Shown here piece by piece: positions 5,205 through 25,092 of a stretch of 64,000 nucleotides of DNA (position 1 is its first letter; every line of letters begins with the position of its first letter). A program made the translations under genes and the position numbers. The stretch lies in the NCBI RefSeq assembly GCF_020696975.1, contig NZ_JAJGBK010000021.1, positions 1 through 64,000 on the forward strand, in the 5' to 3' direction. Under the pieces are notes generated by a model that saw nothing but the letters and a program-made list of their open reading frames with translations, was not told where the DNA came from and did not search any database. The stretch is from Methanoculleus sp. (GTDB lineage Archaea > Halobacteriota > Methanomicrobia > Methanomicrobiales > Methanoculleaceae).

Positions 5205-5371
5205 AAGAGGGACAGGCGAGGATCCCGGGAATCCTCCCCCGGAGCAGTCCTCCCGCCGTCGTCCCGGTGAGAGCAATTGAGATCCCCGCAAGCATCCTTC
5301 CGGCGCTTCGGCGGGAGGCATGCGGCAACGGCCAATCAAAAGTATTAAACGAGAGTTTCGGGATACAATGA
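5201..5371 (+). CDS. Possible small ORF overlapping amzA stop
   Basis: An ATG that shares the amzA stop in an ATGA overlap opens a 56-codon frame. The first two thirds have codon use like the neighbours; the last 15 codons run through the A+T-rich promoter (TTAAAC-type box at about 5341) of the next gene. No recognisable domain or membrane segment. It could equally be chance. Kept because of the translationally coupled start. Confidence 0.25.
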   Translation: MKEGQARIPGILPRSSPPAVVPVRAIEIPASILPALRREACGNGQSKVLNESFGIQ

Positions 5372-5382
5372 AGTGAGTTACC

Positions 5383-5925
5383 ATGGGATACTCTTCTGCC
5401 CTGATCCAGCGAAAGTTCAAAGATATCGTCGGGAGGCGCTACGAGTCGGTCCTCAAGGAGTACGGTGAGTTTCTGCTGGCCGACGAGGAGATGCTCGTCC
5501 CGGAGGTCCGCTCCATCCTGATACCGCTCGACCTCTTCGCCCATGATATCACCGATGAGGCCATCGACATCCTCTCCGCCTACGATGCCACCATCTCGCT
5601 TGCCTACATCACCGACGCCGGGGTGGTCGAACTCATTGAGCAGACGCTTGACCGTGCATCAATGGAGGAGTTCCAGGCAAAGAAAGAAGAGTACGGGCAG
5701 AGACTGCTCGAACGAACCGTGGCAAAACTCGAAGAACACGGTTTTTCAACCCAGACAAGGATGTTTGTCGGGCATAAGGGCGACGATGTCGTCCAGATGG
5801 CGAAGAATCACGATATGGTCGCGCTCTCCCGGCGCTATGCGAACGGGGAATCGACCGATCTCTCGATCAGCCCGACCGTCCTGCGCATCTGCCAGCGGGT
5901 GGAGACGCCAGCTCTCATCTACTGA
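5383..5925 (+). CDS. Universal stress protein-like protein
   Basis: A 180-residue protein with a UspA-type alpha/beta fold: strand SILIPLDLF, a helix with DEAIDILSAYDATISLAYI, and a C-terminal strand ETPALIY. The nucleotide-binding G-x2-G-x9-G-S/T of ATP-binding Usp proteins is not intact (GHKGDDVVQMAKNHDMVALS), so ATP binding is doubtful. It carries an N-terminal extension of about 45 residues. It is the first of three plus-strand genes, 11 bases before the permease, which suggests a regulatory or sensory partner of that transporter. A TATA-like box is at about 5341. Confidence 0.75.
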   Translation: MGYSSALIQRKFKDIVGRRYESVLKEYGEFLLADEEMLVPEVRSILIPLDLFAHDITDEAIDILSAYDATISLAYITDAGVVELIEQTLDRASMEEFQAKKEEYGQRLLERTVAKLEEHGFSTQTRMFVGHKGDDVVQMAKNHDMVALSRRYANGESTDLSISPTVLRICQRVETPALIY

Positions 5926-5936
5926 CAGGTGCGTGG

Positions 5937-7259
5937 ATGGATACAATTGCACTGATCGCAGTAGCGGTCTTTCTCTTCACCTACGCCCTCATCATCGACG
6001 AGCGGATCCACCGGGCTGTTGCCGCCATGATGGGAGCGGCGGTCGTCGTCTTCATCGGGATCATCACCTGGGAGGGACTCCTCGAGCATATCGACTTCGG
6101 GACGATCTTTCTGCTCCTCGGGATGATGATCATCGTCAATACCGCCCGTGGCAGCGGTCTCTTCGAGTATATCGCAATACGCACGGCGAAACTCGCAAAA
6201 GGGAGTCCAATCAGGGTCATGATACTCTTTGCGATCGTGACCGCGATCGTGAGCGCGTTCCTCGACAACGTCACCACGGTCCTTCTCCTCACCCCGATGC
6301 TCCTTTACGTCGCGAGGGTGATGAACCTCAACCCCATCCCGTTCCTCGTCACGGAGATCTTCGCCTCCAACGTCGGCGGGGCCGCAACGCTCATCGGCGA
6401 CCCGCCGAACATCATGATCGCATCGTCAGCGGGACTGACGTTCAATGAGTTCCTGATCCACCTCGGGCCCATCATGGTCGTCAATATGGTGCTCCTCATC
6501 GGGCTGATGTACCTCATCTACGGCCGGTCCATGAGGGTGAGCCCGGATGAACGGCAGGAACTGGTCCGGACACTCAACGGTCTCGATGAGCGGGCGGCGA
6601 TCGTCGACCGGTCGCTCTTCAACAAGTCAGTGGCCGTCATCGCCTTTGTGGTCCTTCTCTTCTTCATCCACGATCGGATAGGCGAGATTCTGCACACCGT
6701 CCTGCCGTTCGTCGACCCGACGATGGGGCTTGAGCCCGCGGAGGTGGCCCTCATCGGGGCGGCAATCCTCCTCTTCTGGAGCAGACAGTCCCCTGAGGAG
6801 ATCTTTGAGAAGATCGAGTGGCCGGCCCTCTTCTTCTTCGGGGGGCTCTTCGTCATCGTCGGCGCCCTCGTCGAGACCGGGATCATCTCAAGCATCGCTA
6901 CAGTCATGGTCGAGAACGTCGGAACGACCGGGGAAGCGATGTTCATCGTTACCTGGTTTGCCGCCATCGCCTCGGCGATCGTGGACAACATCCCCCTGAC
7001 CGCGGCGATGATCCCGCTCATTCACGACCTGGGGGCGACAATGGACGTCTACCCGCTCTGGTGGTCACTTGCCCTCGGTGCGTGTCTCGGCGGAAACGGC
7101 ACCGCCATCGGTGCGTCAGCAAACGTCGTGGTCATCGGTATCGCCGAACGCGAGGGGATCGGCATCACGTTCATCGACTTCCTGAAGGTGGGGATGCTCG
7201 TACTCTTCCTGACGGTTGCAGTAGGATTTGGAATACTCTGGCTGAAATTTGCGATGTGA
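5937..7259 (+). CDS. ArsB/NhaD-type ion transporter (SLC13-like permease)
   Basis: A 440-residue integral membrane protein of the ion transporter superfamily that includes ArsB, NhaD and CitM, with about 11-12 hydrophobic segments. The family's paired re-entrant motifs are visible: NVGGAATLIGDPPNIMIAS in the first half and CLGGNGTAIGASANVVVIG in the second. SAFLDNVTTVLLLTP and SAIVDNIPLTAAMIP are the matching helix signatures of each half. The transported ion cannot be read from sequence; arsenite, sodium/proton exchange and small anions all occur in the superfamily. It is sandwiched between two Usp-like genes, 11 and 5 bases away. Confidence 0.88.
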   Translation: MDTIALIAVAVFLFTYALIIDERIHRAVAAMMGAAVVVFIGIITWEGLLEHIDFGTIFLLLGMMIIVNTARGSGLFEYIAIRTAKLAKGSPIRVMILFAIVTAIVSAFLDNVTTVLLLTPMLLYVARVMNLNPIPFLVTEIFASNVGGAATLIGDPPNIMIASSAGLTFNEFLIHLGPIMVVNMVLLIGLMYLIYGRSMRVSPDERQELVRTLNGLDERAAIVDRSLFNKSVAVIAFVVLLFFIHDRIGEILHTVLPFVDPTMGLEPAEVALIGAAILLFWSRQSPEEIFEKIEWPALFFFGGLFVIVGALVETGIISSIATVMVENVGTTGEAMFIVTWFAAIASAIVDNIPLTAAMIPLIHDLGATMDVYPLWWSLALGACLGGNGTAIGASANVVVIGIAEREGIGITFIDFLKVGMLVLFLTVAVGFGILWLKFAM

Positions 7260-7264
7260 ATGAC

Positions 7265-7714
7265 ATGAAGATTCTGGTGCTTATCGATGGTTCGAAGTGG
7301 AGCCAGAAAGCGGCTCTGCACGCGATTGGACTGGCAAAGCGGAAGAATGCCGAGGTGGTCCTCTTCTCGGTGCTGGATATCGCGGAGGCAAAAGCGATGA
7401 CGTTCAACTTCTGCGCCCAGAGCGGGATCTGCGAGCAGTTGAAGGATTATGAGAGCAGGATCTGGAAGGACATGCATAAGAGCATCGAGGACGACCAGAA
7501 CAGCCTCCTTACCCGCTACCGGGGGGAGAAAGTCCTGTGCTCGGGTAAGATTGTCGAGGGCAGTGTCCGCGACGAGGTCGTCAGGGAGGCAAACTCCGGC
7601 GACTACGGGCTGGTCGTCATGGGGGCTTTCGGCCGGAGCGGGAAGACCCGGATCAGCGCCCTGCTCGAGCAGATCGGCGGCGCGGTCAGCCCCCCGCTGC
7701 TCGTTGTCCGGTAA
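7265..7714 (+). CDS. Universal stress protein family protein
   Basis: A 149-residue UspA-fold protein starting five bases after the permease stop. The N-terminal strand MKILVLIDGS and the C-terminal segment VVMGAFGRSGKTRISALL-x-PPLLVV correspond to the Usp core. The GxxG part of the nucleotide loop is present (GAFGRSG), but the spacing to the following small residues is not canonical. Four cysteines are mid-protein or before (FCAQSGIC and others). It probably modulates or senses with the co-transcribed transporter; this is inferred from gene order only. Confidence 0.8.
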   Translation: MKILVLIDGSKWSQKAALHAIGLAKRKNAEVVLFSVLDIAEAKAMTFNFCAQSGICEQLKDYESRIWKDMHKSIEDDQNSLLTRYRGEKVLCSGKIVEGSVRDEVVREANSGDYGLVVMGAFGRSGKTRISALLEQIGGAVSPPLLVVR

Positions 7715-7857: not shown

Positions 7858-8682
7858 TTACTCAACCTTCTCAAGATCGTCCGAGAGGTCTGTCGAGAGG
7901 TCGACCGTCCAGAAGTCGCCGCTCGCGGGGAACGCCATGCTGAAGTTCGTCGTGGTGTCAACCTGGATGCTGCTCCCCGCAGGCGCCACCATCTCAAGCA
8001 GGTGCCCGCCGGCGGTGCGATCGGCGGTGATGAAGTGGAGATGGTAACCCGGGACGTTGATCCCTTTCGCGAGCGCCGGCGTCCAGAACCCGACGGCAGT
8101 CCCGGTGACGTTCTCAAACGTAAAGACCATCTGGTTCGCCGTCACATCAGCGAGCCGTGGGTAGGGTCTCTCCTGGGCGGGCACGCTCCGGGTCACCACC
8201 CGCGGGAAGGTGCCGTCCATCCGGATCGCATAAAAGAGGTTCTCGGAGGGGAGCTCCGCCGCCAGGCGGCGCCCGAGACCGGTCAGGTTCATCGGTTCGT
8301 CGATCGTGACCGAGAGGTCCGGGTCAAAGAACGTCGCGACGGCAAACGGCGTCGTCTCGTTCCCGGCGACCGGGTAGGCCCGGCCGTCAACCCGGATAAG
8401 GTACCACTCGCCGTCGACGCCGATCAGTTCCCCGTCGAGCCGGTCACCGCACCCGATCCCGAGATCCCCGTAGGTCGCGAGATCGTCGTACGCCACGCTC
8501 CCGTCATACACGCCCTGCAGGAGTGCATCGATCGTCGAGACCTGAAAGAGCGTCTCCCGATCGACGTCCTTGCCGGGTACAGGCCCGGCAAGGATGGGCG
8601 CGACGGCAAGGGCGACACAGGCGCCGATGAGGAAGAAGACGGCGGCAACGGCGGCGTAAGGAAGCAATGCACGTGTAGCCAT
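7858..8682 (-). CDS. Alpha-acetolactate decarboxylase, membrane-anchored or exported
   Basis: Converts alpha-acetolactate to acetoin. The 274-residue protein has family landmarks (FQVSTIDALLQGVYDG, DLGIGCGDRLDGELI) and the zinc triad spaced exactly H-x-H-x10-H (H214, H216, H227). Residues 1-35 are a hydrophobic segment after a short basic start, ending near ALAVAP. The enzyme is therefore exported or anchored outside the cell, unlike the usual cytosolic form. It lies ten bases after the cytosine deaminase gene on the same strand, so probably co-transcribed. A methanogen could use it to vent excess acetolactate from branched-chain amino acid synthesis. Confidence 0.88.
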   Translation of the reverse strand: MATRALLPYAAVAAVFFLIGACVALAVAPILAGPVPGKDVDRETLFQVSTIDALLQGVYDGSVAYDDLATYGDLGIGCGDRLDGELIGVDGEWYLIRVDGRAYPVAGNETTPFAVATFFDPDLSVTIDEPMNLTGLGRRLAAELPSENLFYAIRMDGTFPRVVTRSVPAQERPYPRLADVTANQMVFTFENVTGTAVGFWTPALAKGINVPGYHLHFITADRTAGGHLLEMVAPAGSSIQVDTTTNFSMAFPASGDFWTVDLSTDLSDDLEKVE

Positions 8683-24639: not shown

Positions 24640-24712
24640 TGGGCCCGGTGCGATTCGAACGCACGACCTCCCGGTTATCAGCCGGGTGCACCACCGGCTA
24701 TGCTACGGGCCC
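24640..24712 (-). tRNA. tRNA-Ile (GAT)
   Basis: 73 bases. The acceptor stem GGGCCCG pairs with CGGGCCC, the D-arm starts AGCCGGTGGTGC, and the anticodon arm is CCCGG-CTGATAA-CCGGG with anticodon GAT. The T-arm is GTGCG-TTCGAAT-CGCAC, discriminator A. CCA is not encoded. Intact cloverleaf. It is one of two near-identical copies 281 bases apart on the same strand. Confidence 0.97.
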
Positions 24713-24993
24713 GGAGACAATTGTATTAGTGCCTGTAAATGTTGTATCACCATCATCTTAAAGGTTGCGTCAAAACCCCGCTCACAAACCGCCGGATAAC
24801 AGAATCTTTAACAAGCACGCACGGGATACCGCAACAGCGAGACCACAAAAAGCGCCTCCGCGGAAGACGAAGGCATCCCCCCACCCCGCCCCTCAAGAAG
24901 GGTCTCATCTTCTCTCCTCCGCCGAAGAGAAACCAGGCGGTCCCGGGGTAGAGATAACAGCGCGAGTTGCAAAGACGCATGCTAAAAGGGATA

Positions 24994-25066
24994 TGGGCCC
25001 GATGCGATTCGAACGCACGACCTCCCGGTTATCAGCCGGGTGCACCACCAGCTATGCTACGGGCCC
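24994..25066 (-). tRNA. tRNA-Ile (GAT), second copy
   Basis: 73 bases, same acceptor, anticodon arm and anticodon GAT as the copy at 24640. It differs at single positions in the D-arm (AGCTGG) and by a G-T pair closing the T-stem (GTGCG/CGCAT). It is upstream of the first copy in transcription direction and may be co-transcribed. An A+T-rich box at about 25101-25112 is its probable TATA. The 281-base spacer (24713-24993) holds no gene I can support. Confidence 0.97.
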
Positions 25067-25092
25067 AACAAAATTACTCTGCAGTTTCTGAC

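Follow-up and report, generated by a model that had tools for sequence, protein, structure and literature searches.

Two Usp-fold genes bracket a CitMHS/ArsB-type permease gene in Methanomicrobiales and probably form a regulated transport unit with it

TeaD (structure 3hgm) is the universal stress protein (Usp) of the ectoine TRAP transporter TeaABC of Halomonas elongata. In a passage of PMC8280820, deletion of TeaD is reported to raise transport, and an excerpt of PMC3673472 describes a near-typical ATP motif and bound ATP for this protein. Haloarchaeal transporters of the APC, FNT and SSS families that are fused or adjacent to UspA, with a proposed regulatory role, were noted in 2011 (passage of PMC3102087), and Usp-transporter linkage as such is therefore known. 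Usps fused to amino acid permeases and to Na+/H+ exchangers have also been described (excerpt of PMC12159084). KCC (SLC12) transporters have cytosolic regulatory lobes that resemble USP, together with an N-terminal segment close to the ion path (passage of PMC8280820), and Rv2623, a Usp of Mycobacterium tuberculosis, is reported to bind and negatively regulate the transporter Rv1747 (excerpt of PMC5549992).

The locus described here lies in the window, the whole stretch of 64,000 nucleotides of Methanoculleus sp. DNA that was analysed, the source genome of which (G000) comprises 2.29 Mb in 33 contigs. Three open reading frames on the plus strand, U1, P and U2, follow each other with gaps of 11 bases (U1-P) and 5 bases (P-U2). 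A sequence-only reading had described a permease flanked at these distances by two Usp-fold proteins, and the coordinates of the reading frames and the structural models both agree with that description.

5337-5350, plus strand: AT-rich box CAAAAGTATTAAAC, the likely BRE/TATA promoter of the operon
5383-5925, plus strand: U1, a 180-residue divergent Usp-fold protein with an N-terminal extension
5383-5502, plus strand: N-terminal extension of U1, residues 1-40, a possible docking segment
5937-7259, plus strand: P, a 440-residue CitMHS/ArsB-type permease of the ion transporter superfamily
6264-6278, plus strand: DNVTT motif at residues 110-114 of P, the same in all 18 (18 of 18) permeases from the order that were aligned
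6984-7001, plus strand: DNIPLT motif of P, residues 350-355, the second-half counterpart, invariant in the same 18 of 18
7265-7714, plus strand: U2, a 149-residue Usp
7412-7432, plus strand: cysteine pair C50-x5-C56 of U2, a possible redox or metal site
7622-7633, plus strand: remnant of the U2 nucleotide loop, GxxG at residues 120-123

As for TeaD, Usps are encoded here with a secondary transporter, and TeaD, which has the USP fold, ranks near the top of the structural match lists of U1 as well as U2. TeaD is, however, one Usp with a transporter of another family, whereas the trio has two Usps without the full motif, one of them extended and the other with a cysteine pair. The haloarchaeal APC, FNT and SSS systems are similar in being archaeal transporters with adjacent UspA genes; they differ in transporter family, and the passage of PMC3102087 that deals with them describes no conserved two-sided bracket. 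The Rv2623-Rv1747 system differs in that a tandem Usp acts via the FHA domain of an ABC exporter, and KCC, one fused polypeptide of another superfamily, offers an analogy only.

The AT-rich box CAAAAGTATTAAAC lies 32 bases upstream of the U1 start and is its own sole match in the window at up to one mismatch, where 0.01 were expected. In 12 aligned upstream regions from 12 relatives, its core, AAA..ATTAA, was invariant and the flanks differed, and CAAAAGTATTAAA was found exactly in 8 of the 12. A sigma-70 scan, which is uninformative for an archaeon, found no promoter. An acetolactate decarboxylase gene encoding an N-terminal hydrophobic stretch adjoins the trio (window positions 7858-8682, minus strand). 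The window also holds two predicted tRNA-Ile(gat) genes about 280 bases apart (24640-24712 and 24993-25067, minus strand).

Among 150 genomes drawn evenly from the order Methanomicrobiales, raw matches were found for U1 in 61 (E 1e-5), for U2 in 63 and for P in 123 (1e-20), the last count including permeases near 30% identity. For counting, U1 rows below 30% and U2 rows below 36% identity were removed and P was counted at 60% identity or more, which left U1 in 58, U2 in 61, both in 57 and P in 62 genomes. The presence and absence of U1 and U2 agreed in 145 of the 150 genomes, and co-occurrence gave a Fisher p of 2e-35 in a test that ignores relatedness. U1 occurred without U2 in one genome (G028), and U2 without U1 in G035, G123, G129 and G145, contig ends cutting G123 and G145. 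Only one of the 62 genomes with P, the 80%-complete assembly G148, had neither U1 nor U2; the other 61 kept U1, U2 or a remnant, indicating that the Usps do accompany the permease elsewhere.

When neighbours within 1200 bases were grouped, 57 clusters carried both brackets, 45 as U1-P-U2 and 12 as U1-P-P-U2, in order and on the same strand, with a few of them broken. The trio is thus not restricted to the genome in which it was noticed. In the 45 U1-P-U2 clusters, the gaps were 8-122 bases between U1 and P and 5-22 bases between P and U2. In the U1-P-P-U2 clusters, both P genes were full length in 9 of 12, and one P stretch was a piece in G027, G115 and G135; the U1 of G003, also in such a cluster, is split in two pieces. 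Methanofollis-type genomes have the permease duplicated inside the bracket (locus L105, 3946-10852, in G033; locus L106 in G015), and about 4 kb of other genes lie between the two P copies of G033.

The partial clusters comprised three U1-P, two P-U2, 29 single P and one P-P (two pieces of one gene), besides seven U1-alone and ten U2-alone clusters, counts that include weak ordinary-Usp matches and pieces. As for the U1-P clusters without U2, a U2 adjoins the second P of G033, and a full trio is present as well in both G053 and G101. The genomes with single P copies lacking adjacent Usps nearly always hold U1 or U2 elsewhere; in the source genome, none of the nine Usp matches lies near the single P (contig 1, 142 kb).

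Full-length matches to the U1 profile were confined to the order among 294 genomes of the phylum. The weaker matches (36-41 bits), nearly all outside the order, begin at profile position 30 or later, and therefore none of them has the N-terminal motif region. U2 was found at 1e-20 in 22 of the 294 genomes, all within the order. Genome contigs were also scanned with a single N-terminal pattern, which would miss proteins that lack it; this gave 22 U1 loci, 18 assigned to Methanomicrobiales or a taxon within it and four only to Euryarchaeota.

Decay of the trio is partly shared. In G028, U1 has stops, its trio has neither P nor U2 left, and the remaining single P is frameshifted (possibly a sequencing error); in G115, stops interrupt U2 and P is broken as well. 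Loss is not always joint, however, as G115 retains an open U1, and G129 an open U2 without U1 and with P only as a piece elsewhere. G035 has a remnant of U2. The single P copies fail as proof that the Usps are dispensable, since the single P of G028, where the trio is broken, is frameshifted too. For the single genome pair G000-G096, the dN/dS values (NG86) were 0.24 for U1, 0.10 for P and 0.11 for U2, and YN00 gave 0.030/0.503 for U2, showing purifying selection on the trio genes in this one pair. Since retention and loss of the three genes nearly coincide, they are probably one regulated transport unit. We consider it rather likely that the trio is one operon and one functional unit, namely a CitMHS/ArsB-type secondary transporter of ions or small solutes with two dedicated cytosolic Usp-fold subunits that would set its activity.

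For U1, the score against Pfam Usp (PF00582) was 22.3 bits, under the curated cut-off of 24, and it is therefore termed a Usp-fold protein and not a Pfam Usp member; U2 scored 54.7 bits against the same cut-off. Structure models of both were built from alignments of their own orthologues. The U1 model had a mean pLDDT of 83, the Usp part being mostly above 90 and residues 1-38 near 50, and the U2 model had a mean of 90. In these predicted models, residues 40-180 of U1 matched MJ0577 (1mjh_A) with Z 16.9, rmsd 2.2 and 132 aligned positions, and U2 matched 3s3t_B with Z 19.8, rmsd 2.5 and 137 aligned. The regulatory domain of KCC-1 also matched the predicted models of U2 (Z 10.1, rmsd 3.5, 122 aligned) and U1 (Z 8.5, rmsd 3.6, 121 aligned). 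These Foldseek and VIA-align comparisons of the models indicate that both U1 and U2 have the USP fold. Matches of U1 to farnesyl pyrophosphate synthase (E 0.03-0.1) and to HARP were discarded as chance, and the VIA structure lists also have rows for photolyase, ETF and cyclodipeptide synthase, which were taken to reflect a common arrangement only.

The N-terminal extension is the best conserved part of U1. In 24 sequences, one of which is an ATPase-linked paralogue, the mean column conservation was 0.736 with 7 invariant positions for residues 1-40, as compared with 0.539 and 5 invariant positions for residues 41-180. The motif M-x-Y-x3-L-x2-R-K-[FY] was present in 40 of 41 distinct U1 proteins, and the remaining one has it after a GTG start. 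Its high conservation, together with the low model confidence, would fit a segment that folds on a partner. According to a passage of PMC8280820, KCC was not significantly affected when its N-terminal stretch was deleted, which weakens the analogy of a plug for U1.

The cysteine pair that had been noticed in the downstream Usp recurs as C-x5-C in all 38 distinct U2 proteins, and in none of the three ordinary Usps checked from the same genome (G000). The nucleotide loops of both proteins are altered: the canonical ATP motif G-2x-G-9x-G[S/T] was absent from all 41 distinct U1 and all 38 distinct U2 proteins but present in all three of those ordinary Usps, and the residual GxxG is kept in 38 of 38 U2. 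These sets of 41 and 38 were length-filtered and exclude broken copies. An excerpt of PMC3673472 states that a missing full motif does not exclude ATP binding by a Usp.

These features bear on a reading in which U1 and U2 would be stress proteins made at the same time as a transporter that the same stress calls for, but not bound to it. One likely promoter and the short gaps would explain co-expression of this kind, and many Usps act without a known partner. However, the U1-P-U2 order is kept across families and at two chromosomal sites, the extension of U1 is conserved above its Usp body, and broken units tend to lose several members; we regard co-expression without contact as unlikely.

For P, the scores were 302.8 bits against Pfam CitMHS (PF03600; cut-off 31.9) and 49.4 bits against Pfam ArsB (cut-off 22.2), and VcINDY matches it by sequence (E 1e-18), which are its likenesses to the ArsB/NhaD/MamN/DASS permeases. 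It differs from them in lying under the curated cut-off of every NCBIfam model matched, with 199.4 of 500 bits for the best match, MamN, 97.4 of 457 and 82.9 of 415 for the ArsB models, and 47.8 against 80 for NhaD_1. In the initial designation as an ArsB/NhaD-type permease, the NhaD part is only loose.

A P-type ATPase gene with Ca-type features (PEGLP, NLVTD; best matches SPCA and SERCA) lies directly before the single P in all 18 Methanoculleus loci compared (L099, 1320-5610, and L176-L192 among them; three more such loci, in G076, G112 and G142, lie outside this set), and it also precedes the single P in G028 and G148, not in G080 or G107. Two permease loci of a distant family, f7, have such a gene nearby on the opposite strand. 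In the 42 loci compared, such a gene stands beside only one trio (G025). No substrate of P is read from this pattern.

In family f7, found elsewhere in the phylum, a permease about 31% identical to P is followed 16-25 bases downstream by another Usp in five of the five genomes having it (seven searched), the permease of G168 being in two pieces. Among the distant permeases of the phylum, a Usp lies beside three of eight loci, all of them f7, and the remaining five had no adjoining Usp match, within flanks of about 1.5 kb or less.

Two open U1 paralogues lie away from P (contig 12 of G053; at 85 kb in G101), each being the closest gene on the same strand ahead of an A-type ATPase operon and each without U2. 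Both operons encode a short H-like coiled coil (by eye), then subunit I and a 481-residue c subunit with six ATP-synt_C stretches (Pfam), and that of G053 continues with E, C, F, A, B and D (Pfam). In these operons (loci L146, 1892-12373, and L149, 1069-5636), the c subunit is one chain of six hairpins, and that of L146 has IPQTQ in the first hairpin versus CETQ in the next four. A similar operon in G009 has no U1, which rules out the U1-ATPase link as a rule. The sequence-only interpretation is supported in part, and its claim that the Usps are dedicated to the permease needs to be qualified in one respect, for these two ATPase-linked paralogues.

These paralogues, which head alternative A-type ATPase operons without U2, would also suit a reading in which U1 and U2 are a sensor whose chief target is a different ion machine, such as an A-type ATPase, or the energy state of the membrane, with the permease as one of several clients. 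This is improbable: the arrangement is seen in two genomes only, the G009 operon does without U1, and the source genome has a single ATP-synt_C match and therefore no second such ATPase. In addition, the paralogue of G101 shares only 25% identity with U1, although its full-length match to the U1 profile scores 112 bits.

At many loci in Methanoculleus, Methanofollis and Methanomicrobiaceae, the trio lies downstream of counterparts of the RFC-L, UPF0146 and archaemetzincin genes of the window; in some Methanomicrobiaceae three genes are inserted upstream with the trio whole, and the downstream side varies. A second site is found in the Methanoregulaceae G053 and G101, beside AcnX and UbiD genes. 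AcnX also lies within the compared flank of the single P in 6 of the 18 Methanoculleus loci, and likewise in G080 and G107, which suggests, without proving it, that the single-P site of Methanoculleus once held a trio. In G129 and G035, only U2 or what is left of it lies next to AcnX.

A tree of 37 permeases contains a group of 17 (support 96/97) that includes the P of the window and those of the U1-P pairs of G053 and G101. Outside this group, in a branching order that is partly unresolved, fall the P of the Methanoregulaceae trios, the tandem copies of Methanofollis and the single P of Methanoculleus. Usp neighbours occur on both sides of this split, and the Usp-permease link is therefore older than the split. 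That the linkage is only apparent, in a region stable by descent, is very improbable: the upstream RFC-L, UPF0146 and archaemetzincin genes are also conserved in three families, but the Methanoregulaceae trios have a different neighbourhood, the trio stays whole in some Methanomicrobiaceae despite three genes inserted upstream, and U1 and U2 agree in presence and absence in 145 of 150 genomes.

The regulated transport unit thus remains our preferred reading. It is supported by the f7 permease-Usp pair as an independent parallel and by the ion theme of the U1 paralogues before A-type ATPase operons. Counting against it are the common single P copies, the arrangements with one Usp missing, the decay that is not always joint, the Usps at only three of eight distant-permease loci, and a synteny that partly reflects a stable region in three families. 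As in the TeaD class, a Usp gene lies in a transporter operon, co-transcription being judged from the spacing, and the arrangement is conserved. By analogy with TeaD and with the USP-like lobes of KCC, the trio is most likely a transporter that two cytosolic Usp subunits regulate in a TeaD-like manner, and the terms gated transporter and regulators that the sequence-only reading applied to it appear reasonable. In such a unit, U1 would dock on the membrane protein via its N-terminal extension, and U2, perhaps paired with U1, would sense a cytosolic signal, either an adenine nucleotide at the residual loop or the thiol or metal state at C50/C56. The U1/U2 pair may then restrain the transporter, as reported for TeaD on TeaABC, and in Methanoculleus the Usps of the trio may act in trans on the second P copy, which is unbracketed, as well.

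A bolder proposal, which we hold to be doubtful, is that U1 is the founder of a portable family of clamp subunits for ion-translocating machines. Its N-terminal segment would dock on or plug either a CitMHS-type permease or an alternative A-type ATPase, and its Usp body, without the canonical motif, would relay the state of a partner sensor, U2, switched by redox or metal at its cysteines.

A literature search found no title on the U1-P-U2 trio or on Usp-CitMHS pairs in methanogens, and the excerpt of PMC10785759 on ammonia shock in Methanoculleus names other antiporters and no stress protein. As far as this search shows, the two-sided bracket, the non-canonical loops of both Usps, the extension of U1, the cysteine pair of U2 and the paralogues linked to ATPases are new.

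The roles of most universal stress proteins are still unclear, and here two of them are tied to one transporter by order, co-occurrence and partly shared decay, with the conserved N-terminal segment and the cysteine pair as candidate working parts. The idea that Usps are regulatory subunits of transporters therefore becomes directly testable with three small genes. There is also a hint that, in some methanogens, A-type ATPases are connected with this family and, if the clamp proposal were true, Methanomicrobiales would couple ion flow and ATPase use to the redox or energy state via one protein family.
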